DNA of 21,429 bases from a virus: positions 1 to 21,429 of the IMG/VR virus record IMGVR_UViG_3300020159_003004; one strand, written 5' to 3'. The notes beneath the pieces were generated by a model. It did not search any database and was not told the origin of the DNA. It saw only the letters and a list, made by a program, of their open reading frames with translations. The translations under genes were made by a program, and so were the position numbers. Positions 3,001-20,711 of the stretch are shown one piece after another; position 1 is the stretch's first letter, and each line of letters begins with the position of its first letter.

Positions 3001-4634
3001 CCATATGCAGTAACTGCTACGCCAATTAGGCCAGAATCAATACCATTAAATGAAAGGGATTCATTTGGAATAAATTTACCTTTAACGTCATATAAAGTTA
3101 GTGACTTACTTGAAGATACGTTGCTCCTTAAAAATCCAGATGCTCCACTATTAGTACCTTTTACGTAAGTTGGAAAAGTAAGAGTTGTCTCATAATTTAA
3201 ATGTAATTTGGTAAATGGTTGAATATCAAAAAGAGATACGTGCCATTCGTTCAAATTTTTATTTGATGAATTGTATGATCCAGACTCTAATTTAAAGTCA
3301 TAAACTCTAGCTAGTCCGATTTCTGAACCAGCAGCAGTAGTACTTGAAGATCCAACTCTCTGGTCTCTCAAACTTAAGATAAAAGTATTACCTAGTCCTA
3401 CTTGCGGTGCTCCATAAACTTTATTGAGTCTTAGTGTTGGACCAGTATTATAAACTAATGATTGGTTTTCTAAAGTTTTTGTAGTTCTTGGTTTGTCTAC
3501 GTCTAAAAATGTTGTTGAAATTAAGTCAACTTCATATCCTCTAACAAAAGCCTTACCTGGAGAAATTTGGTAAAGTGCTAAGTTGTCACTTGGAGTTGCT
3601 CCACCATAGGTAAATTGACCTCTATTGAAGATACCACGATTTCCTTTGTTATTATTCAGAGAATCTTTTACGGAAATGTCAAAGGGTGATACTACATAAT
3701 CACCAGATTCTGCATAAGTTCTTCTGGCTAATTCGTCAGTAATAATACTATAATTTGTTGTTGTTTTATTTGTACGAATAACTCCATCTACAACAGTCGC
3801 AAGTTCGATGAAGTTGTTATCGTCAAAGTCTGTTAAAGACTTTTTAAATAAAAATGTTGATATTCTTAGTCTATCTGCACCAGGAGCTGCATAATTATTA
3901 TTTCCCTGAGAATTGTCTGTAAGGGTTTCATCAATATCAGAAGTAATAATTTCCTCATTAATGAACAAACCAATTCTATAATTTGGTCGATTTGAATATT
4001 GATCTAATATTAAAGTCTCAGTATCTACATTTACAAAGTTTCCCCTAATAAAATAAACGCCCTGAGATACGTTAAATGATGATCCAACCGCAGATGCATC
4101 GTTTGCTAAAGTTAATGCAAATGGTTCATTCGCTTGAATTGTGGTATTTCCTAAAAGACCTGAGGTAATAACAACATTTGATGTTAAAAGTTCTCCATCA
4201 GAGAACTGTTGAGTTGAATTATTCTGGGTGCTAGAATTTAAATAATTGATATATAACGTTAAATTTCCTCTTTCAGAATCTTGAGGTAAAAGTACTTTAT
4301 CTACAACAGCAGTTACACCCGAAGTTCTTCCCGTTATTTTTGAACCGACTAACTGTGAAGCATATGCAGAAACTGGAACACCTAGATAATCATTTTGAAG
4401 TTGAACTGCATAGTAGATGGCATTATATCCAGTATTACCTGGAATAACCTTAGCACCTTCTTTAAAAAAGTGCTGTCCAAATCTTTCAATTTGGTTTTGT
4501 AATATTGATTGTAAAGTCGTTAGTTCTCTTGCTTGAACTGGATACCCTGGCTTAAAGAGAACCCTATGATAATCATTATTAGGATTAAAGTCATCAAAAT
4601 ATGGTGCTACATTGAGATTTGTTTGCTGAGACAT
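1..4634 (-). CDS. DUF4815-type virion structural protein, 3'-truncated by the window edge
   Basis: The frame opens at ATG 4634 (MSQQTNLNVAPYFDDFNP) and stays open for 1544 codons to base 3, with two bases left over, so the C-terminus lies outside. The N-terminus carries the DUF4815 signature, including VLFKPGYPVQARELTTLQSI and QNQIERFGQHFFKEGAKVIP (about residues 20-62), and later SPGKAFVRGYEVD (about 355-367). A three-unit beta repeat occupies residues about 595-806. The last visible part reads EVEWLKQSFATRSESVTPFL then SFWQGTVELTPATDTWIDT, a style I associate with large marine T4-like phage structural proteins. It follows gp8 by six bases, the place where T4 encodes gp9 and gp10, so a fibre-attachment or peripheral baseplate role is plausible but inferred. 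Confidence 0.88.
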   Translation of the reverse strand, partial: MSQQTNLNVAPYFDDFNPNNDYHRVLFKPGYPVQARELTTLQSILQNQIERFGQHFFKEGAKVIPGNTGYNAIYYAVQLQNDYLGVPVSAYASQLVGSKITGRTSGVTAVVDKVLLPQDSERGNLTLYINYLNSSTQNNSTQQFSDGELLTSNVVITSGLLGNTTIQANEPFALTLANDASAVGSSFNVSQGVYFIRGNFVNVDTETLILDQYSNRPNYRIGLFINEEIITSDIDETLTDNSQGNNNYAAPGADRLRISTFLFKKSLTDFDDNNFIELATVVDGVIRTNKTTTNYSIITDELARRTYAESGDYVVSPFDISVKDSLNNNKGNRGIFNRGQFTYGGATPSDNLALYQISPGKAFVRGYEVDLISTTFLDVDKPRTTKTLENQSLVYNTGPTLRLNKVYGAPQVGLGNTFILSLRDQRVGSSSTTAAGSEIGLARVYDFKLESGSYNSSNKNLNEWHVSLFDIQPFTKLHLNYETTLTFPTYVKGTNSGASGFLRSNVSSSKSLTLYDVKGKFIPNESLSFNGIDSGLIGVAVTAYGVSDVKSVYGKVGAANTFNADVIQSSTGVIGIATVGVQTYFQNEELFRTTITHTVGVGSTVIYLDSLQYIPNGIDNVSISIGNSITAGEVNGIGVTNAPIVSIASTYIQINSANVDSIGVTTTITSGISTTVGFGSTTIYVNNIPAGVTIGSSITVGTGLTAAPIVAVGNTFVIVSSGSTLNSPLRTTVSSLVGVGSTSIFVGIVTGVVAGVSSMSVGTTLKNVAIVSVGDTFVNIGAADTAGVTISAGVAVTFNNVSSMITGTAVTFSRISRLVSGDVVVISNPLFTSKIRSSNPLFPGTNRIFKNNLISYTDTTLPDPVFARIVSVGTTDIEVTNIQTVSGVTSSRLPSTSSLEVTDLKVIRTNLESSLDNTLYTKLPKINVSSVEISNSILKIRKTFTVNISGNQLSANVTAGTNETFSAFDVERYSLIRSDGTVETLTADMFAFIAGGTQLQIYNLGSNDTGATLTATLEKINPKSKVKRKNRVKSILISNSKYEGSGIGATTLDDGLTYGDYPYGTRVQDDIVSLSTADIIEIHGIYESADTTDPSPPKVVLASITSPSSTTSELIIGEELVGQTSGAIAIVAEKLTASQISFIYKNQNTFNEGETINFSESGIRAQTVTLDTPSFDISFNYSFNNGQTGTNYGHGYLSRKSTALEPNKKIKVYFSSGYYDSTDDGDITTASSYNTFDYSLEIPNIDNNRVTDIIDIRPRVSDYSISEGSRSPLEFYGRTFDSTGNSSTSILASDETILTTFSFYLGRIDRIYLGKDGKIQVKYGIPAEKPEKPVSVDDSLEIATINLPPYLYSPSQSSIQFLEHKRYRMVDIKQLENRIKNLEYYTTLSLLESNTSNLFVPDSDGLNRFKSGFFVDNFSSFLPQEDRIPIKNSVDAQNKELRPSHYTTSIDLIEGPVVGLDPNADLAFEPIEGINVRKTGDILTLDYAEVEWLKQSFATRSESVTPFLISFWQGTVELTPATDTWIDTTRLEAKIIDTEGNYAE
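2215..2850 (-). repeat. Three tandem ~60-70-residue repeats in the DUF4815 protein
   Basis: Units begin at VGVGSTVIYLDS (about 2840), VGFGSTTIYVNN (about 2610) and VGVGSTSIFVGI (about 2435). Each continues with a glycine-rich GxSITVGTxL-like strand, an API/AIV-[SA]-[IV] segment (APIVSIAST, APIVAVGNT, AIVSVGDT) and a closing TTxxSG-like turn. Units are imperfect and all remain in frame. The periodicity also creates a long opposite-strand shadow frame over the region, which I do not consider a gene. Confidence 0.75.
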
Positions 4635-4640
4635 AATTCT

Positions 4641-6191
4641 TTAGAACTGCAAAATGACTTTAATATCTTCTTTTTGGTTTGATGACCTTGTAATTGCGGG
4701 TCTATTGTCAACGTAAATGATGTTTCCCGAATGTCTCTTTACCTCTGGACTGGAAATTCCGTTGGAAAAAGTCTGACCAAGGTAGTATGTTCTATTATTT
4801 ATTACTGTAGATATACCACTGAAGTTATTGTCAATTGTCAAATTTCCTATTGAACCACCAGAAATAGTTAATGCACCTCCAGTTCCAGGTGAGGATGTAA
4901 ATTCTGTCAAATCAAATCCATAACTAGGATTCGTTTGAGATGTTCCTACCGTATTAAATCCAACGAGAGTTCTATCTTGCCAATATTTTAAAACTCCAGT
5001 AGTTTGATTATAACTAATAATTCTACCAACCGCTGTTGTGCCGGTTGAAACTGTTTGGGTTATAAAGGAATCTGCAGTAAAAGTTGCAGAACTATATCCA
5101 ATTCCCGTTAAACGAAGTGCGTTAACTGCACTAGCTCTATCTGCAGACAATAATGTCCCTGTGGTTACCTCAGGATTTTCTACAACACCAACTCTTGCAA
5201 TTTGATTACCGGTGATGAAATCGGGATTTTCGTTATTATTTTCAATTCTAGAGTAAAGAAGAACGTTATATGCTCCAAGTTCTCTATAGATATCATATCC
5301 ATGTCCGCCTTTTGGTGACATAATTACATCAAATGTTGGTCTTGTAGTGCCTGTCGGGACATTTCCGCCAACTAAATCAATATTTGCATAAGTATACCCA
5401 GATCCTTGATTTGATACTGTTACAGTTTCTACTTCTTGGTCATTATTAACAACGATTGTGCATTCTGCACCACTACCATTTCCCCTAATGGGAACTCTGG
5501 TATATGTTGTGTTTGCGGTTCCTATTCCAACACCTCTATTTGTAATAGATATAATTTTTATTGACCCATCAACTGCATTTTCTCTAACAGCAGAATTATC
5601 AGTTGAAGTTGCCCAATTCTGCGGAACAGGAATAAAGTCAGTAGATTCGAATTTCACAATATCTGCAGGTTTAATTGTATAAAGATACTTCCAGATATAT
5701 CCATCTCCACTTGAACCAGATGCTCTTGGTTCTAAATCAGTAAAAAGTGGTTCATCTAAAGAAGGTTTTCCATTAGGTGTTTCTGGAGTTGTGCCATTTT
5801 GTAAGCAAATATAAACTCTATACTCACTATTCATTACAAAGTAAAAAGCAGAGTATAAATTTGTTGCTCCAGAAACTTTGGCTGTATTTGTTCTGCTATA
5901 ATCATGACGATACATATCATACGTAGTTCCGGAAGTCCAAGACCTCTTTGGAACAACTTGACGAACATCTGAAGAATTAATTTTCTTCAAGGCAATCATG
6001 GTGTCCCAATAACTATTCTCTTCATTAAAATTATCTTTTGGTGCTGGTGGATTTTCATCCCAATCAGTTTGATATTCAGATGGATTTGGTAATCCAATAA
6101 AAGAATAATATGAGTTTGCAGAAGAACTTACACCAGACACAAAATTCTTAGCGTTTAATATTCTAATCTGATCAGTTATAATTGCAGACAT
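4641..6191 (-). CDS. gp8: Baseplate wedge subunit gp8
   Basis: This is an outer baseplate wedge protein, which in T4 forms a dimer that binds gp7 and gp10. It is 516 residues, against 334 for T4 gp8. The N-terminal half carries gp8 family landmarks: YYSFIGLPNPSEYQTDWDEN, a WDTMIALKKI helix, VVPKRSW (T4 has VIPRRDW), EYRVYICLQNG, and SGDGYIWKYLYTI (T4 has GDGYVWEYLFEI) at about residues 160-172. The extra length comes from a GxGY-type beta repeat (GNGSGAECTIVV, then NQGSGYTYANIDLVGG, about residues 236-275), resembling the repeats in the upstream giant protein, and a beta-rich C-terminus. It ends six bases before the next gene and has its own late-promoter-like element. Confidence 0.93.
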   Translation of the reverse strand: MSAIITDQIRILNAKNFVSGVSSSANSYYSFIGLPNPSEYQTDWDENPPAPKDNFNEENSYWDTMIALKKINSSDVRQVVPKRSWTSGTTYDMYRHDYSRTNTAKVSGATNLYSAFYFVMNSEYRVYICLQNGTTPETPNGKPSLDEPLFTDLEPRASGSSGDGYIWKYLYTIKPADIVKFESTDFIPVPQNWATSTDNSAVRENAVDGSIKIISITNRGVGIGTANTTYTRVPIRGNGSGAECTIVVNNDQEVETVTVSNQGSGYTYANIDLVGGNVPTGTTRPTFDVIMSPKGGHGYDIYRELGAYNVLLYSRIENNNENPDFITGNQIARVGVVENPEVTTGTLLSADRASAVNALRLTGIGYSSATFTADSFITQTVSTGTTAVGRIISYNQTTGVLKYWQDRTLVGFNTVGTSQTNPSYGFDLTEFTSSPGTGGALTISGGSIGNLTIDNNFSGISTVINNRTYYLGQTFSNGISSPEVKRHSGNIIYVDNRPAITRSSNQKEDIKVILQF

Positions 6192-6224: not shown

Positions 6225-9200
6225 TTAGACTATGTAGTTTTTGTATTTTAACGAAGTGCTCCTATTCACTGCTGCTGACGTAGTAATTCCCGATACTCCA
6301 CTATTTCCATAGAAATTAAATTCATTATCACTAACTCTAGAAGTAAGTAGTATTTTACCCCAACTAAATTCTCCGATGTATTTGGAAGTTGTGATAGAAC
6401 TTGCATTACTGGTAGAGAATCCAACAACATTTACATTAACTCTTCTTACTAAAGTTGTAGCAGTGCCGATAGTTGATATTCCAATTGAAGTATTTGCAAC
6501 ACTTACATTAGTTACTGATATGACTTGATAAACATTGTCAACAAATTGAGTTCCTGTTCCAATATTTGAACCACTGCTGGTTTTTGAAGTAAATGATGTA
6601 GATGCAACACCAACATTTGAATTGTAAACAACGAAAAAGTCGCCTGTGGTTATTCCACTCATCGTGACAGATGTTCCAACAATAGAAGAACTTCTTAGAT
6701 ATGAGTCAATTGGGATATGTAGATCAAATATTAATCTATAATCAGACCCAACCATAGTTGTTCCAAAACCAACAACAACACCAGAATCTCCAGAATAAGA
6801 TTCTACGGAATTAGTTTCAATAACTGACGTTGGGGGCTCAATTAAAACAGATGGTGGATTAGTTGATGTATATCCTGTTCCTGCATTAGTTAATGTTATT
6901 GTTGTAACAACTCCAGAAAGAACCGAAGCAGATGCAATAGCAGTAGTTCCTAAACCAATAGATTGTGCGGTGTTCCCAATACTAATAGAAGGAGTGGAAA
7001 TGTATCCTTTTCCGCCATCACTAATTGATATTGATGTTATTGTTCCCGCAGCAGAAACAATAGCAGTGGCAGATGCTCCAACTTTTTCATCTTGGGAAAT
7101 TAAGGTAACTCTATTTTGGAAAGTCAAACTAGTTTGACTTTCATTTATTGGATTAAAGAATGGTCTTAAATTATCGACGTAAACGATAGTTGTACCAACT
7201 CCAACTGGTTGTATTAAGTAAGCAGTTGGGTTAATAGTTGGCTCATAGAGCATTCTATCTTTGGTTATTTCTTTTTCATCTATAATCTTGTCTTCGGTTT
7301 GACGACACCAAGTAATTGTTCTAGATAAAGATTCATCACCAGTATTTCCTGGACCAAAATATGGATTTGTATTTACTAAATCAGTTGCTAAAATTGAAGT
7401 AACTGTTCTTTCTTCTTCTTGGAGGGTTGGTTGTTGTCCGATAGATGAGTCATAACCAAATATTAATTGGTCACCAATTTTCACTGTTTCTAATATATTT
7501 CTTTCCACAACATCAACCGTTCCACTTCCCTTATAGAAAAGAATTTTGCAAGTATCATTTGTTCCAGGAATTCCCAAACTTGTTCCTTTCGGAGCTTCAG
7601 TAAATGTTATGATACTTCCACCTTCAAAAATATATCCTTGTCCCGGAACTTGTAAAATGTCATTTACAAAGACTAGAAGTAAATCCTGAACGTTAATATT
7701 AGATCCCTTAGCTGCTTTAATTGAAGTTAAGTTTCCATTAACTGTTAATGGGAAAGTAGTTGTTTCACTATCAAACAGTCCGGAAATATCATCAAAAGAT
7801 TGTAATTCACCGAGAGACCATCCAGTAAATTTATCTGAGAATATATTTTGTACTGTAATTTGGAATTCTTTAAATGACGATGTTGTAGGTATTCCCACCA
7901 AACCACCAATAGGGACAGTTAATATTTCATTTTCTCTATATCCATAACCAGTATTTTTAATTTCAAAGTCAATTACACTAGAACCTTGTCCAACTACAAC
8001 GTCAATTGTTGCTGCTGTTCCAATTCCAATTGGTGAAGAAGAACTATAAACTAATGGAATATCTGAGTATGATAATGGATCATCAAAAATAACTTTTGGT
8101 GGATTTGTTGATGTGTATCCAACGCCAGGATTTGTGATGGCAATACTTACAATATTTCCCCCACTCACTGCTGCTGTTCCTATGAAATTCAAATAGAAAC
8201 CATTTGAATCATATGTTTGAACACCTACTCTCACCGTCTGAATGCCAGATCTATATCCAGAACCACTATTTCCAATACTAATTGATGAAATTGTTCCAGC
8301 AACAGAAACTATTGCTGTTCCTCCTGCAGCAACCAAAGGTTGATAACCAAATCCTTCAGTTGAACCAACAGAGATGATAATTCCTCCGGTGGGAAGATTC
8401 GATGAATTTACATCATACGAAACAGAAGTAGCAGTTCCGGTGAAGGTTATTGATGTAATACCAACGCTTTCGGATAATGTGTAATTTACATCTGAACCTG
8501 GTCCTTGGAAAACATCATTAATTAATATGATAGCGTTTTCATTTGAAATTCCAGTTACATTTGAACCAGAAGTTTTTAATGCAAATGTTCTATTTACGCC
8601 TGTGAAATTATCTGAAACGTCATCAAAAATATAGTTCTTGTAATAAGACTCATTAGAACTATTAACTATACCAGATCTCATGAAAGATCTACCGTGGAAG
8701 TGTGAGCTTGTTGATATTCCAGACCAATCTCTTTCGTCCGGTGGATTAGTTATACTTCCAATTGGAATGTTACCATATGGAGCTTCTACAAAGTTTAAAG
8801 TATTATCGATAATATTATATGTTCCTCTTACTTTTGTAACTATTGTTCCCGTCGAATAACCAGCAACTGTGGTGCCAAGCCAAGGTCTTCTGACTCTTAT
8901 TGCATTTGTGCTTCCAATACCAACTCCTTCAATTTTCATTATTTCGCTTCCAATTCTTATCAGATCTCCACCAAAGAATGAAGTTATACCAGTAAAATAT
9001 AACAAATCATCTGTCGTAAAGGCATTAACTGCAAGAGTCGTCGTTTGGGCGGTAGCAACAACTGGTGATTGAATAATATTATCGATTGAAATTAAAACCT
9101 TAGCATTCTGATTATGTGAAGTAAACTTATGAGTTGCCCCAACTCCAACTGTTGTTAAATCAAGAACATTTGGAATCGATTTTAATGAATCTGTTGCTGA

Positions 9201-12200
9201 TGTTGCTACTTTTACTTTATTTTCATTAACCTTAACGATATAAAGAGTTGATGGAAGTTTATCCGTCGAACCAAGACCAGTTATTGTTGTAGTTGCAATT
9301 CCTATTGCTGTTGTAGTACCTGCACCAGCACTAGTATAAGTTACTTTTTCTCCAGTTACAAAGAAGTGCCCTGGAATTTCTATCGTGTTGTCAGTTAGAC
9401 TTACGATTCCGGCATTAGACCCATCAAAATATCTTTCGAAAATTTGTGCTCCATTATGTGTAAGATTAAACGCTCTCTTTAAGTCACTTTCTGTTCCATA
9501 ATAATTTGCATAATTGGTTTCAATTGTTCCATTGTCTAAATCAACAATATCTCTAGAATCATCTTGTATTCTTAAGATATTTGCGTAAACTTTAACTTGA
9601 GTTTCAATATTAGGTAAAGGTGTGAAAGTTAATTGGGTAGTTTCTCCAATACCAGTTATTACTCCACCTATAGTTCCAATTCCAGAGTGTGTTTCTAAGT
9701 TTCCAAATTCTGTTACATATGGTTCCGGATATGCATCATCATCTATCATTACAACTTCCGATATTTGATGTCTATTATTTGTCAAATCTGTGACTTGAAC
9801 TAGACAATATGCCGCACTATATTCTCCAGAATACTCCAAAATAGGAGATGCTGTTGGTGAAGTCGAAGAAGCTATTGATGTTGTTTTTGCAGTTAATACA
9901 GCGTGCTTCATTTCTAATGTTCCAACGCCAACACTAGATGTATTTGCAATGCTAACCGTTATTGCATCAATATAGGTGGTTGTTCCAATACCAGCATTTG
10001 AAATAAAGTCAACTTTTACAGTTGAACCAGAAATGTATGGATAATATGTTCCATATCCACTAGAAGATAATGGTGTTGTCAAAGATCCAGTAGTAAGTTG
10101 ACCGTACTCAATTAACTCAACATTTGTGCCATCATGAACCAAATTTAACTCATCAAACTCATATTCACCATCCCCACCGCTCATTTCTATTAGAATTTTG
10201 GCTGAAGTATACGTGGTAGCAAAACTTACAACATTTACAGTTGATGCTGCAGAAACACTAGTGTTTGTTGTATTAATATTAACAATCGGTCCTATTGTGG
10301 TGCTTCCAACTCCACTTAGGTTATTCTTTAAATTATAAGAAAGTGTAGTGACATCATAATCATTTACTGTATACTTCGTTGGATAATAATTTAAGATTCC
10401 ATCTGACCCACTTACGGCTAAGTCAAAAGATCCAAGATCATATGAAGTCTCAACTCTTCCATATTGATTCAAATATCCATTTATATTATCATGAATCAAA
10501 GTTACCAACATTACCTGCCGCTGACCGGTATATCTTCTATCTTTAATATAGGTAATGTATTTCTGAGCTCTTATGTCTCTTAGATCAAATCGATGAACTT
10601 CTGCATAATTGGTTGGTCTTGGATTACTATTAAATTGAGAACTAATATCGTCTATTAATAAAACTCTATTTCCAAATGATTCAAAGTAATCAGTTAGAAT
10701 TCTATTGTTAAATGATATTCTATTTGAAAATACCCTTGTTCCTATTCTTAGAGAATTTTCTTTAGATAAGTCAAAATCATAAAAACAATTTAAGTCTCCA
10801 AGACCAATCATATCAACAATAACATCCACACCGGTTATTTGTGTCGAAACACCAACTGTTAATGATGTATTTGTTTCTGGAGAAACTTTGGATTCTATTT
10901 GTAGATCTGAGAATTTTTTAAATCCAACTGTGTGGTTTAGAGTGCTTACTGCATCATTCCAAGTTTCAAATGGTATCTTTGATTTTATTGAATATGAGAA
11001 ATTCTGATAGTAGAAGTTATCCTGTATTCTTTGCTCTTCATTATTTAAGAATCCAGCACTAGTTTCCCAACCACTTTCAACTTTTGATGTTGAATCTAGA
11101 ACAGCGTAATAATCAAATTCTGTAATAGATGAAGCAAATCCTTGAGTTTTTGAAGACAAACCTTCAATTTTATTATTAACTTCAAATTCGTCTTTGGTTG
11201 ATACTTTTAAGTAATTTATAATTGGATCCCAACTCTCAACTAAACCAGTTGAATCTCCTGATTTTACAATTTCACCAACTCTGTAATCATTTTTCTTTAA
11301 AATTGAAACAAATTGTGGGAAAAACTTTTCTGGTATAATTCTGCCAGCAGAATTGGATGCATCAAAACTACCTGGAAATTCTGTTCCAGACAAGTAACCA
11401 TCTAAACTATAAGATACTGAGCCTATTCCACCAATATTTGCATCAATATCAGTTAATGTAAAGAGTTGATAATTATAGTTTTCCGAATTAAATCCTTTTG
11501 CCGTAGAACCTATGCCAACGCTAATATTTTCAATTAAAACTTTATCATTAACCTTGAATGGGAAGGCATCTGAGGTATTATATCCAGTTGATAATCCAAT
11601 TGTAACTTTTTTAGTTGAATTATTATAAGATACTGTTCTAATACCAACACCATTTGAGTTTTGTATCGGAAGAATAACTGGATTTGTGTTATACATTCCG
11701 TAACTATTATTTTTAATTTCAACTTGATTTTTGCCAAGTTCATATCTTAAATCAACTTCTGGTACTATCTGTCCAGTTTTGCCATCAAAAACTAATAATT
11801 TTGGTGCAGAAACATATCCTCTACCAAAGGAAGAAACTCCAACGGATTGGAATGATGTTAAACTATCAATTTTTATTATTTTTGGTAATGCTACTTTTGG
11901 TTTTAAAGTACAATCAGATGGATAATCGAATCCAACATTCATTATTTTTGTTTTTGTAATCCTTCCAACAGAATTGCTCTGAACCTCAAGAACTGCTCCA
12001 GCACCAATATTCGAAGTTACGCTTGAAATTGCTGGTAGAGTATAGTAATTAACTCCTCTATTCAGTACTTTAATATTTTTTATAGGTCCATATGCTGATA
12101 TTGAATCAGTATAATAATTTAAGTCTGATGTTGATGATATGTATGAAGATGCTTCAGGTTGTCTTGTTAAGAAGTAGTTAAATGATGTTGTCGTAGATAT

Positions 12201-15200
12201 GGAAACTTTGTGAGTTCCATTATAAAAACTTTTTTCTATTTGTAACTCGTTGTAAGAGTTAATAGAGTCATCTGCTAATATTTCTTGCTTCTCTATGGGA
12301 AGAGTGCTTTCATAAACAGGAATTAAATTATAGTATAAAACTTTTGGAAGTTGCTCATTAACAATTAATCTCAGTTTTGCATCTGAAGAAATTCCTACAA
12401 TTCCAGTTCGTTGGACATTAAAAGTAGAACTATACTCTGACGTATCAAAAATATTTTTAAATTCCCTATCTTTAAATATTTCAAATCTAAATGCAGAGTA
12501 TCTAGTTGATTGGTAAGTATATGATAAAGAAGAATCAGATAAATCAAATTCAACTACAGAATTTTTATATAGTTTTAACGAAGGATTTACTTGCGAAAGA
12601 ACTCCAGAAGATGCACTTGTAATATTGATAACATCTGGAACTCTCTTAGTTGAATTGAAGTAGCTATCTGATAATCTAACGTTGTTTTTATCTACAAAAA
12701 TTATGTAATAGGTTTTTTGATCAATCAAACCTCCAGATGGTGAAGTTGATGTATGAATTACTTTATCACCACTATTAAAATTATGATTTATAATTGTTAT
12801 AGTGTTTGTAGTGATATTTACGTCACCTGCGCTAAAAGATTTTGGATTGACTACAATTTTTCTATTGTAGTCATTATACTTTAATGTTATTGATGTTGTA
12901 ATAGATGGACTTACATCAACTTCAACATAATCATCATTTAATAGTCCATGAGTTTGTGCTGTAGAAACAGTAACCACATTTCTGGAAACTTGTCCCGTAA
13001 TTACGGAATAATTTGTAACGAAACTATGATAAACACCAGTTCCAAATCCAGTAAAAAATACTGGTCTAATATTACTAGTTGTATTACCAATACCAGCAAA
13101 GAATCCTGTACTTCCAAGACCAACTTTTACAGTAGATATTCCTATAAAATTGTCATTAAACTTGGCAACGTAAACACTAGAATTGTTTATTAATGATGTA
13201 GTGCCGACACCAACAGAGTAAATTGATATGGGAGTTCCGGTATTAGTCTTATAGGTTAATTGATCTCCAGTATTTAATTGGTGGTTGGGAAGATAAATTG
13301 AACCATTCTCTATGAATACTTGAGTTGCTCCAGCGCCAGGGTTAGAGAAAGTAATAGTTATTCCAACACCAACAGAAGTATTTGTTCCTATCGCAATAGA
13401 TTCGCTTGGATTAAAATAAATTTCTTTGTTTATAGAATATGAATAATCCGTTTTAAAACCAGAATTTATTTTTAATCTTCTTGGGTTTTCGTATATGACT
13501 GTTGTAACACTATGAGACGTGCCAACTGTTCCACTAATTTGCCTTAAAATTCTTAATCTAGATGAAATATTGTCAATATTGAGAACTTTTACTTTCTCAT
13601 TATCCATGGAAAGAATATCATTTTCTCTTATATTCGAAAATCCTAGAGAACCCCTTACAGAAATATAAGTAACAATTCCAGTTGCACCTATGGTTCCAAT
13701 ACCAATAGTAGAAGTTCCTATTCCAACTAATGATAATTTGCTTGTTTCTATTCCAGCAACATAATTACCTTCTATAAGCGATGAAGTTGTGCTTAATCCA
13801 GATACTGAAACAAGATCAAAGTCGGTGAAATTGTGTGGATTTTCATTATATAAAATATATTCCCCTTTATTTCCAATTGGATAAAATTCAACATTATTTA
13901 AAGTACTGCTAGCAACACTTATATTTGAGATTGTTTTTCCAACAATTTTTGAAACAACTGCAGCCGCAGAAAATCCTCTAATGTTTCCACCAGAGTCAAT
14001 ATTATTAAATACGAGTGGATCATTTACTTGGTAGTTATTTCCTCCTGTTAAAATACCAATACTATCAACATACCCTGGAGAGACTCCAACAACATCAATT
14101 GTCTGATTTAGTTTATTGGGTATAGTTATGTACTCATAAGTTGATTCATTTTCTATGATGTTATATGGATAAGTATTTCTAACCCAGTTTGTCTTATTTA
14201 AATCTATTACATTTTGATTAGAAAATCTATCAAAGTTAAACTTATTTGGTTTTGATTTAAACTTATTTCCTATCAAATATGGGAAAATGGGTTTTTTATA
14301 TCTTGCAAAAGGACCGGAAGATTCGACACTAGAATTATCTAAAGTCGCAAAGTATGCATATGTTCCCTTTGGATAATCTGGAGTTATGCAAAATCTTCCA
14401 TTATTTTCATCTAAAACAGTTTCATCATTTGAGTTGTAATAAATATAATCTTCGATGAAAAATCCTTCAGGGAAATGATTTAAAGAAGGTCTAGATGAGC
14501 TTAATTGCAATCTATAACCACTCTTCATCTGCGAAACTACTCCACCGGATTTTGTAGAATATCCATATGGACCATAAATTGGATTTCCATCATAAGCCCA
14601 TCCAATTATAGGTGAATGATCTGTAGAATTTATTTCTACAGAATTTGATATTCTTAAATCCGAATTTGAATATAAAGTTTTTCCTGCTTGATCTTTGGAA
14701 AAGATCAACTCTCTTAGTTTTCTAGGAGCATATATGTGACTATATTGTAAACCAAATTCTTTTCCAGTTCCTATTGTTAAGAATCCATCATCTTCTGATA
14801 TTTTGCTTATATATTTTTGGAATAAATTGACAGTCCAAGACTTTATTTTTGCTCTAAACGTTGCCCCAGATCCAGGATGAACGGCAACAATAGACGTTGA
14901 TTCTTGAAGATATCCACTACCCTCATCAATCACTTTAACTTCGACTATTTGATTATTTGAAATAACTGGAGTCAAAACTGCACCAGAACCACTACCAGAA
15001 ATAATTAAATTTGGAGAGGAAGTGTAGTTTCTACCAACATTATTAACCAGAACCTGTTTTATCTTTCCATTTGATATAACTGGTTGAAATTCTGCATTAG
15101 AACCACTGGCAATTGTTATAAGTGGTTGTCTATCAAGATTAAATATATCTTCAACACCATAAGAAGACCCGCCAGAGGTCATGTGTATTGACTTAATAGA

Positions 15201-18200
15201 ACCTCTAAAAATTGGTTCTATTTGAGCTTTATAACTTGTGGAGATTCCAACGTTTCCAACTAACTCGACACTTATAGTTGGATAATTGAAGATGTGAGTG
15301 TCTCCATTAGTTGAAGTAATATCAATATATTGTTTGGTTTTGTAGTAAAAATCTTCACTAAGATTTCCACTACCAACTTGAGAGACTCTAAAATTATTTT
15401 TGTCTACTTTTGTGACGACATAGTTTGTATTATTAGAAAGTCCTCCAATTACATTACCGGAAGTTGAATAAGTTACTATTTCACCAGATGAAAAATCATG
15501 GTTTTTAATGTAGATTGAATCTGTTGAGGTATTGATGCCTGATGCAGAAACAGTTCTTTTTTTGTTTTGATACCCAAATCCAGTATTTTCTACAGTTACT
15601 GAAGCAAGAATTGATTTCTTATTAATTGTTTCAAATGAATGGTTTCCAACGCCATGTCCTGTTAAAAATATTGTATTAATTCCAGAAATAGCATCATTGA
15701 AGTTTCTATGTAATTTTATTTTTGTTGTAGAAACATTTGACACATAATAAGTTGCGTCTGTTGTCAGTCCAGTTACGGATTTTTGTCCGAAAGTTTTATA
15801 AATTACGCCTTCGCCATTTCTAAATTTATGTGCAGTTGAAAATCCTATCGTGGAGATTGTACTTCCAATTCCAACTAAATCGGATTTTAATTCAGAATTA
15901 AAAGTTACTTCATGTACGACCAATTTCATATTAGCTCTGGCTTTTGCTCCAGAACCATTACCGCCTGTTATTCTAACAGTTGGAGTATCAAGATAATCAA
16001 AACCAGGATTTACTATGCGAATTTCATTTAAAGAACCAGAAACCGCACAATATCCTGTTGCACCAGTTCCAACAGAATCATTTATTATAATCTGTGGTGT
16101 ATTAATAATATCATAATTAGTCCCTTCAGATAAAATTTCAATATCTTCTATGGGTCCATAAATTATTTTATCCTTTCCTTTATAGTTTAAAATTTCAACT
16201 CCGTTAACTAGAATTCCAGTAAATCCTGAGATAGTTTCTTCAAATAAGTTTGTAGTCTCCGGAGGAGAAACTTCTCTTAATAATTTTTGAGATTCTAAAG
16301 TTTTCCCAGCAAATTCATATGGTTCTATTGTATTATTATTAACTGTTGTTTGATTTTCTAAAGATATAAATTCTTCATTTAAAATATCAGATTTACTCTT
16401 TGCAAATTTTACATTATTTGCATCAACTCTTTTAATGAAGTAAATTCCCTCATCAAAAAGTGTACTAGAAACAACACTAGATGTTGACGAGTTTCCGTCA
16501 ATATCAATAGAAGTTAATTCTGTTTTTTCTGGAGTATAATAAACAGAATCTCCAGTATAAAAACCATGATCTTCTAAAGAAGTTATTGTAAAAGTGCTTC
16601 CTTGAAAAATTCCAGAGAAAATAATAGAGCGATCAGTAGCATTTAATTGTTGATTAACATAATTTGGTATAGATGGAGCAGCAATTAAAGTTTTTTCTCC
16701 ATCCTTATAAATGTTTTGTATGTTAGCTGATAAAATATTTGCGTCTAAAAACTTTGATGAATTTACTTTTAGTATTTTTCTTCTTACTTTAAATCCATTT
16801 CCTTTTAATAGACCTTGGCCAATAATAACTACTGTTTTCTCAGATAAAACATCTAAAACTGTAGAATTACTGATAACAACATCACCCTCTACTATTTCTA
16901 GTATATCTCCAGTTTGAAACGCATGTCTATTTTTAAGTGTTACACTATAAGTTTGATCCGAAGAATCTATAACTTCATAAGACTCTACTTCATATGTTGG
17001 GGAAGTATTAAAAACCCAACCATTATCAAGAGTGCTCTTTCCCTGATATCCTAATGTTGGAATAGTTGCAGTATCATTTTTGCTGTAAAAATAATTTCCT
17101 GTACTAATTGCAACACTATTCAAGATAGAATTAATTCTAACCTTAATTTCAGTACCAAATCCAGTTACAGCTGATGCATATGTATTAATTCCTATCTTAG
17201 AATTATTTTCAATTGAATAATTGACATTACTACATCCTAAAAATTGAGTAAGATTTTTTGTAGTGTAAGATACAATTCCTGTAGTTTGATTGCTAAATTC
17301 TACAGAAATTTCTCCTTGATTTGGAAAACCAACAGTGGAATCTACATCTATTACAGATGAACCAAATGTGAATTGTCCAATTGATCTGGTTTTGGGGTGA
17401 ACTGCAAACTTTCCATAAATTGCCCCATCAAAAGCTGGATCTCTGTTATATCCCCCATCAATTTTTAATTTATAAAAACTTCTTCCATCATCTGAAACTA
17501 CGTTTTCAATTTCTGAAACAGTACCATAAGCCTTGGTGATATTTTGGTATGTATTTTGAAAAAGAGTTAGATTTTGAATATCCTGTATAGGACCAGATAT
17601 TAACTCTACTACCAAATCATTTGTTACTTTGTATTGCGCGTCAGACGGTCTAAAAAGAAAATCCTTAGGGCGTATTACTTTTACTTCATCACCATATAAA
17701 GCCTTGAATAAAATCTCAAAAGAACGATCAGTTCCTTTGCTTTTATAAAAGTCTTTAATTTGTTTTAATAATGTCGATTCATTTACTTTTTCGGTAAAAC
17801 TTCTGTTTTCAAATCCGGGAGATATTTGATATTTTGTTTTAATTAAAAATTCTTTTAAGAAAAGGTTGCTAAGATTGTATATTTTAGTCCCAGCACTATG
17901 GGATTCAGCATTAGAATCTTTAAAAATTAATTGGTCTGAAGTTCTTAGCTTGTAAGTAGAAGCAATTCCAACATTTGTATTTTTATACGCTACAATTCCA
18001 CTGAATCCTCTATAGCAGTTAGTGAATCCATTAGGAGTTCTTGTTTCATATGCAATCACTTCATCGTCTATTGAAATTAGACCATACTTCTCCGGAAATC
18101 CATCAGTTCCAGTTTCGGAATCTAAAAGGTTGATGGTAATATTTTCATCAAAAGAAGTTATGTCAGAACCTAGTACAGTAGAAGTTTTTAGGTTAGTGAT

Positions 18201-18377
18201 AGAATCAAGTTTTACATACTGGTCAATATTTTGCAATAGATCGATTGGAGCTCCTTGAAACTCCTGAGCAAGATAGTATTGCGTTAGAAATTCTCCTACA
18301 AGAGGATACTCTTCTTTGACGTATTGTGGGACTTGACTTTTTACAATATCCTTTAGTTGAATTCTTTTTTCTATCAT
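6225..18377 (-). CDS. Giant modular baseplate/virion protein at the gp7 position (4050 aa)
   Basis: One open frame encodes 4050 residues, about four times T4 gp7 (roughly 1030). Its position between gp6 and gp8 and its N-terminus support a gp7-like wedge role. Residues 1-40 contain VPQYVKEEYPLVGEFLTQYY. A small module with SIDDEVIAY and CYRGFSG follows (about 100-127), then a helical block with IKDFYKSKGTDRSFEILFKA (about 207-226). Beyond this it is a mosaic of beta-rich repeats: GxGY...P modules (about 739-800, 1056-1186, 2096-2246, 3353-3493, 3766-3856), 'TGDxVxY...YYV..V..N' modules (about 579, 839, 950, 1849, 2994), a YHYH-type domain (about 1208-1350), a block with YYQNFSYSIKSKIP (about 2440-2496) and two tandem sandwich-like modules (about 2722-2936). 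There is no signal peptide or membrane segment. It is probably an outer wedge or fibre-like decoration; gp7 homology is inferred from synteny. Confidence 0.85.
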   Translation of the reverse strand: MIEKRIQLKDIVKSQVPQYVKEEYPLVGEFLTQYYLAQEFQGAPIDLLQNIDQYVKLDSITNLKTSTVLGSDITSFDENITINLLDSETGTDGFPEKYGLISIDDEVIAYETRTPNGFTNCYRGFSGIVAYKNTNVGIASTYKLRTSDQLIFKDSNAESHSAGTKIYNLSNLFLKEFLIKTKYQISPGFENRSFTEKVNESTLLKQIKDFYKSKGTDRSFEILFKALYGDEVKVIRPKDFLFRPSDAQYKVTNDLVVELISGPIQDIQNLTLFQNTYQNITKAYGTVSEIENVVSDDGRSFYKLKIDGGYNRDPAFDGAIYGKFAVHPKTRSIGQFTFGSSVIDVDSTVGFPNQGEISVEFSNQTTGIVSYTTKNLTQFLGCSNVNYSIENNSKIGINTYASAVTGFGTEIKVRINSILNSVAISTGNYFYSKNDTATIPTLGYQGKSTLDNGWVFNTSPTYEVESYEVIDSSDQTYSVTLKNRHAFQTGDILEIVEGDVVISNSTVLDVLSEKTVVIIGQGLLKGNGFKVRRKILKVNSSKFLDANILSANIQNIYKDGEKTLIAAPSIPNYVNQQLNATDRSIIFSGIFQGSTFTITSLEDHGFYTGDSVYYTPEKTELTSIDIDGNSSTSSVVSSTLFDEGIYFIKRVDANNVKFAKSKSDILNEEFISLENQTTVNNNTIEPYEFAGKTLESQKLLREVSPPETTNLFEETISGFTGILVNGVEILNYKGKDKIIYGPIEDIEILSEGTNYDIINTPQIIINDSVGTGATGYCAVSGSLNEIRIVNPGFDYLDTPTVRITGGNGSGAKARANMKLVVHEVTFNSELKSDLVGIGSTISTIGFSTAHKFRNGEGVIYKTFGQKSVTGLTTDATYYVSNVSTTKIKLHRNFNDAISGINTIFLTGHGVGNHSFETINKKSILASVTVENTGFGYQNKKRTVSASGINTSTDSIYIKNHDFSSGEIVTYSTSGNVIGGLSNNTNYVVTKVDKNNFRVSQVGSGNLSEDFYYKTKQYIDITSTNGDTHIFNYPTISVELVGNVGISTSYKAQIEPIFRGSIKSIHMTSGGSSYGVEDIFNLDRQPLITIASGSNAEFQPVISNGKIKQVLVNNVGRNYTSSPNLIISGSGSGAVLTPVISNNQIVEVKVIDEGSGYLQESTSIVAVHPGSGATFRAKIKSWTVNLFQKYISKISEDDGFLTIGTGKEFGLQYSHIYAPRKLRELIFSKDQAGKTLYSNSDLRISNSVEINSTDHSPIIGWAYDGNPIYGPYGYSTKSGGVVSQMKSGYRLQLSSSRPSLNHFPEGFFIEDYIYYNSNDETVLDENNGRFCITPDYPKGTYAYFATLDNSSVESSGPFARYKKPIFPYLIGNKFKSKPNKFNFDRFSNQNVIDLNKTNWVRNTYPYNIIENESTYEYITIPNKLNQTIDVVGVSPGYVDSIGILTGGNNYQVNDPLVFNNIDSGGNIRGFSAAAVVSKIVGKTISNISVASSTLNNVEFYPIGNKGEYILYNENPHNFTDFDLVSVSGLSTTSSLIEGNYVAGIETSKLSLVGIGTSTIGIGTIGATGIVTYISVRGSLGFSNIRENDILSMDNEKVKVLNIDNISSRLRILRQISGTVGTSHSVTTVIYENPRRLKINSGFKTDYSYSINKEIYFNPSESIAIGTNTSVGVGITITFSNPGAGATQVFIENGSIYLPNHQLNTGDQLTYKTNTGTPISIYSVGVGTTSLINNSSVYVAKFNDNFIGISTVKVGLGSTGFFAGIGNTTSNIRPVFFTGFGTGVYHSFVTNYSVITGQVSRNVVTVSTAQTHGLLNDDYVEVDVSPSITTSITLKYNDYNRKIVVNPKSFSAGDVNITTNTITIINHNFNSGDKVIHTSTSPSGGLIDQKTYYIIFVDKNNVRLSDSYFNSTKRVPDVINITSASSGVLSQVNPSLKLYKNSVVEFDLSDSSLSYTYQSTRYSAFRFEIFKDREFKNIFDTSEYSSTFNVQRTGIVGISSDAKLRLIVNEQLPKVLYYNLIPVYESTLPIEKQEILADDSINSYNELQIEKSFYNGTHKVSISTTTSFNYFLTRQPEASSYISSTSDLNYYTDSISAYGPIKNIKVLNRGVNYYTLPAISSVTSNIGAGAVLEVQSNSVGRITKTKIMNVGFDYPSDCTLKPKVALPKIIKIDSLTSFQSVGVSSFGRGYVSAPKLLVFDGKTGQIVPEVDLRYELGKNQVEIKNNSYGMYNTNPVILPIQNSNGVGIRTVSYNNSTKKVTIGLSTGYNTSDAFPFKVNDKVLIENISVGIGSTAKGFNSENYNYQLFTLTDIDANIGGIGSVSYSLDGYLSGTEFPGSFDASNSAGRIIPEKFFPQFVSILKKNDYRVGEIVKSGDSTGLVESWDPIINYLKVSTKDEFEVNNKIEGLSSKTQGFASSITEFDYYAVLDSTSKVESGWETSAGFLNNEEQRIQDNFYYQNFSYSIKSKIPFETWNDAVSTLNHTVGFKKFSDLQIESKVSPETNTSLTVGVSTQITGVDVIVDMIGLGDLNCFYDFDLSKENSLRIGTRVFSNRISFNNRILTDYFESFGNRVLLIDDISSQFNSNPRPTNYAEVHRFDLRDIRAQKYITYIKDRRYTGQRQVMLVTLIHDNINGYLNQYGRVETSYDLGSFDLAVSGSDGILNYYPTKYTVNDYDVTTLSYNLKNNLSGVGSTTIGPIVNINTTNTSVSAASTVNVVSFATTYTSAKILIEMSGGDGEYEFDELNLVHDGTNVELIEYGQLTTGSLTTPLSSSGYGTYYPYISGSTVKVDFISNAGIGTTTYIDAITVSIANTSSVGVGTLEMKHAVLTAKTTSIASSTSPTASPILEYSGEYSAAYCLVQVTDLTNNRHQISEVVMIDDDAYPEPYVTEFGNLETHSGIGTIGGVITGIGETTQLTFTPLPNIETQVKVYANILRIQDDSRDIVDLDNGTIETNYANYYGTESDLKRAFNLTHNGAQIFERYFDGSNAGIVSLTDNTIEIPGHFFVTGEKVTYTSAGAGTTTAIGIATTTITGLGSTDKLPSTLYIVKVNENKVKVATSATDSLKSIPNVLDLTTVGVGATHKFTSHNQNAKVLISIDNIIQSPVVATAQTTTLAVNAFTTDDLLYFTGITSFFGGDLIRIGSEIMKIEGVGIGSTNAIRVRRPWLGTTVAGYSTGTIVTKVRGTYNIIDNTLNFVEAPYGNIPIGSITNPPDERDWSGISTSSHFHGRSFMRSGIVNSSNESYYKNYIFDDVSDNFTGVNRTFALKTSGSNVTGISNENAIILINDVFQGPGSDVNYTLSESVGITSITFTGTATSVSYDVNSSNLPTGGIIISVGSTEGFGYQPLVAAGGTAIVSVAGTISSISIGNSGSGYRSGIQTVRVGVQTYDSNGFYLNFIGTAAVSGGNIVSIAITNPGVGYTSTNPPKVIFDDPLSYSDIPLVYSSSSPIGIGTAATIDVVVGQGSSVIDFEIKNTGYGYRENEILTVPIGGLVGIPTTSSFKEFQITVQNIFSDKFTGWSLGELQSFDDISGLFDSETTTFPLTVNGNLTSIKAAKGSNINVQDLLLVFVNDILQVPGQGYIFEGGSIITFTEAPKGTSLGIPGTNDTCKILFYKGSGTVDVVERNILETVKIGDQLIFGYDSSIGQQPTLQEEERTVTSILATDLVNTNPYFGPGNTGDESLSRTITWCRQTEDKIIDEKEITKDRMLYEPTINPTAYLIQPVGVGTTIVYVDNLRPFFNPINESQTSLTFQNRVTLISQDEKVGASATAIVSAAGTITSISISDGGKGYISTPSISIGNTAQSIGLGTTAIASASVLSGVVTTITLTNAGTGYTSTNPPSVLIEPPTSVIETNSVESYSGDSGVVVGFGTTMVGSDYRLIFDLHIPIDSYLRSSSIVGTSVTMSGITTGDFFVVYNSNVGVASTSFTSKTSSGSNIGTGTQFVDNVYQVISVTNVSVANTSIGISTIGTATTLVRRVNVNVVGFSTSNASSITTSKYIGEFSWGKILLTSRVSDNEFNFYGNSGVSGITTSAAVNRSTSLKYKNYIV
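6810..8645 (-). repeat. Duplicated super-module near the C-terminus of the giant protein
   Basis: The same two-part unit occurs twice, at residues about 3245-3493 and 3524-3856. Part one starts FDDVS / FDDIS, followed by a TFxL strand and a 'IILINDVFQGPG' / 'LLVFVNDILQVPG' segment. Part two contains TAIVSVAGTISSISI / TAIVSAAGTITSISI, then a GSGY / GKGY turn, and ends in GVGYTSTNPP / GTGYTSTNPP. At the DNA level a 23-base stretch at 8098-8120 matches 6853-6875 at 21 of 23 positions in the same frame. The spacing between YTSTNPP copies is 415 codons. Confidence 0.75.
9570..10210 (-). repeat. Two tandem sandwich-like modules in the giant protein
   Basis: Two consecutive segments at residues about 2722-2809 and 2849-2936 share one pattern: SA followed by a hydrophobic strand (ILIEMSGGD; YCLVQVTDL), a [FS]-[DE]-E-[LV] segment with an acidic loop (DELNLVHDG; SEVVMIDDD), a Glu-[YF]-Gly core (IEYGQLTT; TEFGNLET), a Gly-Thr turn, and a final strand pair (KVDFISNAGIGTTTYIDAIT; LTFTPLPNIETQVKVYANIL). 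The residue-level similarity is low but the order of landmarks is the same in both. I judge this an old internal duplication of a beta-sandwich domain. Confidence 0.6.
14328..14757 (-). other. YHYH-type domain embedded in the giant protein
   Basis: Residues about 1208-1350 carry the signature of the YHYH domain family: HSPIIGWAYDGNPIYGPYGY, then a Gly/Ser linker, then LDENNGRFCITPDYPKG followed by TYAYFATLD. The name-giving YHYH motif is not visible. The nearest equivalent is QYSHIYAP at about residues 1210-1217. Family membership rests on the downstream signature, which matches well. The function of the domain is not known to me. It is flanked on both sides by beta-rich repeat modules, so it looks like an inserted globular domain. 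Confidence 0.8.
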
Positions 18378-18381
18378 TTTA

Positions 18382-20307
18382 TTATAATCTTACTAGGTTC
18401 CCGTTGTTGTAACTTGAAGAAACAATATATTTTGATGCAGAAGGATCTAATCCAGAAGCAATCTCATCAACAACCATTTCAAAATTGCTGCTATTAATAT
18501 CTAGTTGCAAATAAAGATCCTGTTTTCCGACAACATCATTTGATTTTGGTATTGCGGAAATTTCTATAATTGGTTGACCATCTTTAATTTTTCCTGACAA
18601 TATATTGATAGGATTAATAGTTATGATGCCATTTTTATAGTCTATTGTGCCAACTCCTCTTCTTAAAATACTTGGCGTTCTTGAGTTGGTTGCATTAACA
18701 GTAAACAGGAATAAAGTACCAGTTTCTCTATTTGTATTTGGAATGTCTCCCAAGTAAACCGTTTGAGATATTCCCGCAATTTGAAAACCAGTTGATTTGA
18801 TATTATATCCATCCATACTGAATATGTGAAACTCATTTCCAAATGATATTTGATACTCAGCAAAAGTATTTAAGAGAACTCTTAAATCTCTTCTCATTTG
18901 AATGTTAGTAATATTTGAAGTTATTGATTCATGACTATCATCAATCAACTTCAAAAATTTACTATATTTGAATCTGGCACCATATCTATTCAATTCTGTG
19001 GATTCAGAATACTTAGTAACATTTGTCTGAATAATACTTGAAACGAATGCAGAAGATGGTGCTAGATTTGTATTATAGTAAACTTTTGAGTTAACTTCAA
19101 CATAAAGATACTTTAGATCTAAAATTTCCGGAACTATTCCAGCAACTGCATATTTTTTTAGTTTTAACTTTATACTTTCTTTTTCTAAATTTGGTAAAAA
19201 GTCACCAAATCTTGGTTTTATACTAATAAAGACTTTTCCATATTGTGGTGGTATCAGTTCCTCCCCACCAAAAACAGAAATAGCGTCAGTTTCTGGATAA
19301 ATTCTTGATGGAATTAAAGTTTCAAAATCATTTGCAGTTAAAGCTCTATTTTGAGATGCATAAATTCTTGGTGCATATTTTTTAATAGACTCTACGGACT
19401 CAATGTTTTCTCCACCTCTTGCAGACAGTTCAGTGGTAAGTAGGGAAATACCGGAAGTTACAGTATACTCAATAGAGTTTCTTGTATAAGTCAGTCTTCC
19501 AGAAAATGTGAAAGAATTTACTCCATTTGCACCATCACCATTTGAACTTATATAATTTGCAGTTACAAAGTTACCTTCTTCTAGTTTCTTGCCAAATATT
19601 CCATCACCAAAAATTAATTCATATCTTTCATCTTCTATTTCTTGAATAAAATATACATTTGAAGATCCATTTATATCAAATAAACTATCTTGATATGCAT
19701 ATTTTACTGAAGTCGTTGCATTCTCATTACTTTTAACTGAAACCGATATTAAATTCGTGTCAATTCCAGAATTTGGGAGAATAAATCTCTGATTAGGATT
19801 TCTAGAGGAATATGTAAAGTTATTCGTGAGTAGAATTCCCTCATTTATCTTCACATTAGTAAAAGTTGCTTGCTGATTGAAGACAGGAACTGTAATATCT
19901 TCTAATATTGAGAAAGCAAAAGATTGATTGCCAAAATTTCCAGATGAAGTAGATACAATACCCTTTTTTAAAGTCAGAGAGGATGGAGATGGTGTTACAT
20001 TAGAGAGATCTACGAAAAAAGATACTGTTGCAGACGCAGATTTTCTTGAACGAGGTACATATCCTATGTTTCTTGCAAGTGCAACCACATTCTCTCTGAG
20101 TGTTGCACTATCAATAAACACTTCATTCGCAACCATATTAGCATTATATGAGCTAATGTAGGTGTTATATGCCAAAACATCAAGAATAGTTGAGAGATTA
20201 GACCCCTCAAAATCATAATCAGTAAAATTGGGATTTGCTTTTAGATAATCTCTAAGCGTTGCTTTAACCTGATCGAAATCTAGGTTAGAAAAGTTTACTA
20301 GTGGCAT
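18382..20307 (-). CDS. gp6: Baseplate wedge subunit gp6 (baseplate J-like family)
   Basis: This is the central scaffold of the baseplate wedge. In T4, gp6 dimers join the six wedges into the inner ring and contact gp25, gp53 and gp7. The protein is 641 residues against 660 for T4 gp6. The N-terminal helical region is typical: DFEGSNLSTILDVLAYNTY, then YNANMVANEVFID and TLRENVVALARNIGYVPRS (about residues 33-91). A J-like core follows, with YELIFGDGIFGKKLEEG (about 232-248), a SARGGENIESVE segment, and a KYAPRIYASQNRALTANDFE helix (about 309-328), then YGKVFISIKPR. The rest is a beta-rich C-terminal arm. The gene starts two bases after gp25 and ends four bases before the giant gene, so these are probably one transcript. 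Confidence 0.95.
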   Translation of the reverse strand: MPLVNFSNLDFDQVKATLRDYLKANPNFTDYDFEGSNLSTILDVLAYNTYISSYNANMVANEVFIDSATLRENVVALARNIGYVPRSRKSASATVSFFVDLSNVTPSPSSLTLKKGIVSTSSGNFGNQSFAFSILEDITVPVFNQQATFTNVKINEGILLTNNFTYSSRNPNQRFILPNSGIDTNLISVSVKSNENATTSVKYAYQDSLFDINGSSNVYFIQEIEDERYELIFGDGIFGKKLEEGNFVTANYISSNGDGANGVNSFTFSGRLTYTRNSIEYTVTSGISLLTTELSARGGENIESVESIKKYAPRIYASQNRALTANDFETLIPSRIYPETDAISVFGGEELIPPQYGKVFISIKPRFGDFLPNLEKESIKLKLKKYAVAGIVPEILDLKYLYVEVNSKVYYNTNLAPSSAFVSSIIQTNVTKYSESTELNRYGARFKYSKFLKLIDDSHESITSNITNIQMRRDLRVLLNTFAEYQISFGNEFHIFSMDGYNIKSTGFQIAGISQTVYLGDIPNTNRETGTLFLFTVNATNSRTPSILRRGVGTIDYKNGIITINPINILSGKIKDGQPIIEISAIPKSNDVVGKQDLYLQLDINSSNFEMVVDEIASGLDPSASKYIVSSSYNNGNLVRL

Positions 20308-20309
20308 TT

Positions 20310-20711
20310 TTACCTAGTTGGTTGCAAAACAAATTGTAATTCTTGTGCGGGAACGTTGGCTCCTATAATTTGATACTGTATTAATACATCAAAAGAGTTA
20401 TTATCATAATCGGGGGTCACTACAACGTTTGTTAAATCCACTCTTGGCTCATAATTCACAATTGAGGTTGCAATTTCATCCCTAACGTTTGATGCTGAAA
20501 TTTCATCAACATTTTCAAAAAGCATTTTTGTTATTCTCGATCCAAAATTTGGATTGAAAAATTTCTCGCCGGGAAGGGTAAACACAATATTTCTGATTGA
20601 ACGTGATATTGCACTCTCATTTTTGAGTGCTATCAAGTCACTATTCAGAGGATTGCTCTGAAAAGTCATACTAATGTCTTTGAAACCTTGGCTTACCCTT
20701 TCTAGAGGCAT
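20310..20711 (-). CDS. gp25: Baseplate wedge subunit gp25 (gp25/GPW/TssE family)
   Basis: This is a core component of the contractile-tail baseplate wedge. It is predicted to sit at the sheath-baseplate interface with gp6 and help start sheath assembly, as in T4. At 133 residues it is almost the same length as T4 gp25 (132). Family hallmarks are visible: an N-terminal segment of the type PLNSDLIALKNESAISRSIR, a LPGEKFFNPNFGSRI block followed by KMLFEN (about residues 47-68), and the conserved EPR motif in NYEPRV (about 87-92). A C-terminal beta-strand region ends in LQPTR. The ATG follows a late-promoter-like element by 20 bases, but no good Shine-Dalgarno sequence is present: an AGGT lies 16 bases upstream, too far for normal use. 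The stop is two bases before gp6. Confidence 0.95.
   Translation of the reverse strand: MPLERVSQGFKDISMTFQSNPLNSDLIALKNESAISRSIRNIVFTLPGEKFFNPNFGSRITKMLFENVDEISASNVRDEIATSIVNYEPRVDLTNVVVTPDYDNNSFDVLIQYQIIGANVPAQELQFVLQPTR
20313..20315 (-). promoter_or_regulatory. Short ribosome binding site for gp6
   Basis: The minus strand reads AGG five bases before the gp6 ATG, inside the last sense codon of gp25 (AGG TAA AA ATG). The two-base intergenic gap and this placement suggest translation of gp6 coupled to gp25. The signal is short and therefore tentative. Confidence 0.45.

Follow-up and report, generated by a model that had tools for sequence, protein, structure and literature searches.

A 4,050-residue protein between gp6 and gp8 of a cyanophage contig carries a core homologous to T4 gp7 at its N-terminus

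The window, that is the whole stretch of DNA analysed here (21,429 nucleotides, positions 1 to 21,429 of IMG/VR record IMGVR_UViG_3300020159_003004), is a linear viral contig of 21.4 kb and probably a genome fragment. Its minus strand encodes, in this order, a ferredoxin-like fragment, a small ORF, gp25, gp6, a protein of 4,050 residues, gp8 and a VrlC-like protein. The baseplate wedge proteins gp6 (18382..20307, minus strand; Gp6-like, E 1e-15) and gp8 (4641..6191, minus strand; Phage-Gp8, E 2.5e-17) were identified by Pfam and PHROG, and gp25 (20310..20711, minus strand), also a baseplate wedge protein, by PHROG (phrog_261, E 1e-53). The VrlC-like structural protein (3..4634, minus strand; phrog_358, DUF4815) is truncated by the contig end and is syntenic to VrlC of S-SM2. 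The wedge order gp25-gp6-gp7-gp8-VrlC is the same in S-SM2, a cultured member of the Kyanoviridae, and the wedge gene order also matches those of Synechococcus phage Bellamy and P-SSM2. At the other end of the contig the ORF at 20973-21428 matches phrog_3704 ‘ferredoxin’ (E 1e-28) and is syntenic with an S-SM2 gene annotated as purM/ferredoxin, but it may not truly be a ferredoxin. Two plus-strand ORFs inside minus-strand genes, at 2086-2586 (166 aa) and 12948-13193 (81 aa), gave no sign of being genes.

The central frame (6225..18377, minus strand) runs from its ATG at 18377 down to 6225 over 4,050 codons with no internal stop, starting 4 bp past gp6 and ending 33 bp short of gp8. Its product has a computed mass of 439.8 kDa and is 3.9 times as long as T4 gp7 (1,032 aa), in agreement with an earlier note on this DNA that had described, without naming a strand, an uninterrupted frame between gp6 and gp8 encoding a protein of about 430 kDa, some four times T4 gp7. 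As the DNA has 32% GC, a simple composition estimate predicts about 0.075 stops per codon and a frame of this length thus cannot be due to chance. Along the entire gene third-position GC is 11-19%, compared to 34-49% at positions 1 and 2. Comparison with three relatives gave dN/dS values of 0.04-0.23 in every window of 400 codons over residues 1-3600, which are under purifying selection, and the identity per 100 residues ranges from 0.45 to 0.74 with a peak near 3100-3500, showing an even conservation along the chain. The proposal that only the N-terminal ~250 residues are conserved is therefore not tenable. The first 261 residues of the protein served as query against IMG/VR and retrieved 373 relatives, and in the 80 loci kept from these the frame was open to the end of the retrieved sequence in all but two. 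When other viral contigs were queried with the C-terminal piece, it lay within a frame of 3,993-4,164 aa in each of the 14. An artefact in which two genes were fused by misassembly or lost stops, conceivable in a linear record that is probably a genome fragment, is vanishingly improbable since a like uninterrupted frame is found in these 14 contigs as well as in three cultured phage genomes and since codon bias and selection are continuous along the gene, which excludes the assembly join of two genes that the earlier note had named as a threat to its reading.

Giant gp7 proteins are an already known kind, with versions of 3,000-7,300 aa annotated in cultured cyanophages. The 4,050-residue protein matches the full-length profile of this family, phrog_2885 ‘baseplate wedge subunit’, with 3,811 bits over residues 1-3388 plus a second stretch. 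Over residues 1-4048 it is 50% identical to the ‘baseplate wedge initiator’ of Bellamy (gene 111; 4,067 aa), which has the same position, length, gp7 core, YHYH domain and C-terminal block. The same holds for S-SM2 gp7 (4,156 aa), in which ~100 further residues precede the C-terminal block; both have diverged in sequence, with about 50% identity along the chain. The larger gp7 proteins of P-SSM2 (5,195 aa), S-RIM2 (6,378 aa) and P-SSM4 (7,312 aa), up to 1.8 times longer than the one described here, present the core and then YHYH in the same order. Conversely S-CREM2 gp122 (1,937 aa) is only half as long and matches both the core (E 4e-26) and the YHYH domain (E 9e-39). This protein was detected in purified virions with 91 unique peptides and 27.2% coverage (PMC10665884, Table 3).

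To compare the N-terminus with T4 gp7 we used a mixed profile made from phages Cr30, phiN3 and Ps15, from Desulfovibrio, Rhizobium and Ochrobactrum phages and from cyanophages. An hmmsearch of this profile against 177,635 PDB sequences returned T4-type gp7 as the best match (E 1.5e-9 over 653-828, and E 4.5e-9), followed by an unrelated entry at E 7e-4. Alignment of the mixed N-terminal profile to T4-type gp7 by hhalign gave a probability of 98.1% (E 9e-14) over T4 residues 643-826. A profile built from the N-terminus of the protein's own family (43 sequences) also ranked T4 gp7 first in the PDB (E 9.8e-5), with about residues 204-234 falling on T4 gp7 728-758, and hhalign of this profile to five T4-type gp7 proteins gave 94% for residues ~204-234. 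A bridge between this family and T4 gp7 is provided by the short gp7 (767 aa) of Cr30, a Caulobacter phage: with its residues 12-119 as query the top PDB match is T4 gp7 649-759 (E 0.28), and BLASTP gives 2e-4. Taken together, gp7 core homology extends over residues 1 to ~330, upholding the earlier suggestion that the protein takes the place of gp7 and has a gp7-like N-terminal segment that an HMM comparison should detect. The protein thus belongs to gp7 in a broad sense defined by the core, with its gene placed between gp6 and gp8 and with homology to the helical core and next domain of T4 gp7 (643-826).

This homologous region is split. The mixed-phage alignment and hhalign assign residues 1-60 (18198..18377, minus strand) to the first half of the gp7 helical wedge core, aligned to T4 gp7 from 643 onward. 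There follows a beta-rich insert of about 100 residues (residues ~61-165; 17883..18197, minus strand), delimited by the mixed-phage alignment and by a module search that located a copy of a module C at 91-121. Residues ~166-357 (17307..17882, minus strand) form the second core half, containing the motif DFYxSKG..LFKALYG at 209-229, and the following beta domain, which corresponds to T4 gp7 domain V. This last assignment draws on the PDB search, on hhalign, on the Pfam domains of T4 gp7 (643-689, gp7 helical domain; 766-861, domain V) and on a local HMM that matches residues 1-357 with E 8.8e-87. The insert is present in all cyanophage proteins aligned, where in P-SSM4 and S-RIM2 the corresponding insert is some ~500 residues longer, and it is absent from Cr30, phiN3, Ps15 and the Desulfovibrio phage. 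An AlphaFold model of residues 1-340 was poor (pLDDT 58) and gave no significant match in a fold search (best E 0.06, with two phage tail/baseplate entries); it did not confirm the core fold and was set aside.

The core starts at residue ~6 of the 4,050-residue protein whereas T4 gp7 (PDB 5IV5/5HX2), at a like gene position, has ~640 residues before it; as judged from these alignments the extension is C-terminal to the gp7 core. Residues 1-640 of T4 gp7 and its domain VI are without counterpart here, and conversely the ~3,700 residues that follow the core are absent from T4. In line with this, Pfam detected neither fn3, for which T4 gp7 gives a weak match in its fn3-like start, nor domain VI (PF21456), which T4 gp7 matches, both being parts of the domain set of full-length T4-type gp7 in Straboviridae. 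Shorter gp7 proteins with the core at or near the N-terminus and a short C-terminal part are encoded between gp6 and gp8 in Cr30, in Sinorhizobium phage phiN3 (1,006 aa) and in pelagiphage HTVC008M (gp055, 1,016 aa); the core of the first two is uninterrupted, and searches of the Cr30, phiN3 and Ps15 proteins gave no YHYH domain. HTVC008M gp055 (NC_020484.1 33435-36485) is annotated as ‘head closure Hc2’ and has the gp7 core (E 8e-11). According to a published statement, pelagi- and cyanomyophages lack gp7 and have VrlC in its stead (PMC7029224). Both here and in HTVC008M, however, gp6 and gp8 flank a gene with the gp7 core, and a distinct VrlC gene follows gp8. The presence of the two genes on either side of gp8 argues against this statement, which for HTVC008M looks wrong.

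Beyond the core, iterative HMM searches revealed a ‘GSGY’ beta module A in 9-11 copies (residues 740-3840; span 6857..16160, minus strand), a ‘HxF..TGD..Y’ module B in 6 copies (residues 601-3058; span 9204..16577, minus strand) and two copies of a third module type. No module matches were obtained in 20 shuffled copies at an i-E of 0.1. The repeated beta-rich modules that the earlier note had described are thus real, yet they are recognisable over only about 16% of the chain and calling it a chain of repeated modules overstates the case. The GSGY module is also present in gp8 (4641-6191), in 2 copies. In the 4,050-residue protein it coincides with a match to phrog_460 ‘head closure Hc2’ (1097-1183), which we attribute to module similarity and not to a head protein and which can mislead annotation.

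The inserted globular domain mentioned in the earlier note could be identified as a YHYH domain (PF14240; residues 1249-1349, 14331..14633, minus strand; residues 1177-1406 with flanks), with 84 bits against a cut-off of 25 and with support from an HMM of the YHYH alignment and an AF2 model. The region 1058-1502 and the core are the parts best conserved with respect to the distant S-PM2 and P-SSM4, and this region has matches in 463 phage records, almost all from cyanophages. In many cyanophage records YHYH occurs at two or three places. In S-RIM2 a second YHYH-bearing wedge protein, SWTG_00062 (1,713 aa), lies between gp9 and gp8, and its YHYH domain is split by long inserts. The AF2 model of the region (pLDDT 73, pTM 0.71) matched other viral YHYH proteins and no fold in the PDB, so that the fold gives no function, and a PDB sequence search with the region returned nothing meaningful. 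A published prediction makes YHYH a hydrolase that depends on a metal, with three His and one Asp forming a Zn site, and YHYH domains were reported as fusions to tail/baseplate proteins and lectin-like domains (PMC7824862).

Such a prediction raises the question whether YHYH makes gp7 a metal-dependent, cell-wall-degrading enzyme of the baseplate. The PF14240 score, the predicted Zn site and the retention of the DG of DGxPIYG in the gp7 YHYH domain are in accordance with this. An alignment with bacterial YHYH proteins from GTDB genomes, of which 65 of 68 keep the Y-H-x-H motif, puts the motif place at residues ~1209-1217 (the LQYSHIYAP region; 14727..14753, minus strand), where our protein reads Y-S-H-I. 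None of the 52 gp7 copies has Y-H-x-H, and the aligned place is mostly Y-[SATC]-H-[LI]. A GTYAYF stretch (~1338-1344) had been considered as the motif place and was ruled out by the bacterial alignment, which puts the motif upstream. The histidines of Y-H-x-H would be the predicted metal ligands; the lack of the motif in gp7 makes enzymatic action doubtful. We therefore regard a baseplate enzyme as quite unlikely, and a structural or binding role of the domain appears more likely than catalysis.

The chain ends in a conserved C-terminal block (residues 3383-4050; 6228..8231, minus strand) that was defined by alignment across genera, between which it is conserved, and that is common to the cyanophage gp7 proteins. 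Its central 233 aa match 305 phage records, all but three of them named Synechococcus, Prochlorococcus or cyanophages. The block gave no match in a PDB search and is unrelated to T4 gp7. When the C-terminal 668 residues were aligned to the T4 gp7 profile as a control for the core match, hhalign returned a probability of 0.4%, and the comparison of this end with T4 gp7 that the earlier note had proposed hence showed no relation.

Our results point with good confidence to a gp7 wedge initiator of a Kyanoviridae-type cyanomyovirus, in which the core starts the wedge and the long chain most likely belongs to the baseplate periphery. By homology to T4, the N-terminal ~330 residues with their inserted beta segment would sit beside the gp6 dimer and start wedge assembly, presumably with one copy per wedge and six per baseplate. 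The remaining ~3,700 residues, comprising the beta modules, YHYH and the C-terminal block, would then most likely run outward as peripheral baseplate, so that a single chain may do what T4 does with the separate proteins gp9-gp12. In Bellamy the stretch from gene 113, which takes the place of VrlC, to the neck genes has no annotated gp9-gp12; this absence is read from the annotation of one relative and may reflect divergence, and a gp9 is annotated in S-RIM2. Cleavage of the full-length product is conceivable, and we found no structure of a chain of such ~4,000 residues.

One may ask if the long chain is instead mainly a receptor-binding or fibre-like arm, akin to the adhesion apparatus that the earlier note had envisaged, in which YHYH or another domain contacts the host. 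Tail appendages typically contain beta modules, and Bellamy has no annotation of the fibre-bearing genes 9-12 of T4 at the corresponding position. The known YHYH fusions to tail, baseplate and lectin-like partners would also fit an arm. Against it stand the even conservation and the uniformly purifying selection along the chain, the lack of a hypervariable tip as expected of a host-range determinant, and the presence of tail fibre genes elsewhere in cyanophage genomes. We consider such an arm rather unlikely. Even conservation and uniform selection are more in keeping with a scaffold than with a receptor tip that is hypervariable, and we lean slightly towards a scaffold role of the chain within the baseplate of this wedge initiator.

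The size of the protein is odd and its frame is real, yet cultured marine cyanophages already have annotated giant gp7 proteins, and the family is named in PHROG 2885. If each wedge holds a single copy, as it does in T4, six copies of 440 kDa would amount to about 2.6 MDa per baseplate, compared to about 0.7 MDa of T4 gp7. The core homology provides a clear anchor for modelling the giant chain. One tentative possibility is that, among T4-like marine cyanophages, one gp7 chain of 4,000-7,000 residues replaces the gp9-gp12 periphery of T4, in which case wedge and periphery would be one covalent molecule and the YHYH domain would have been structurally repurposed.
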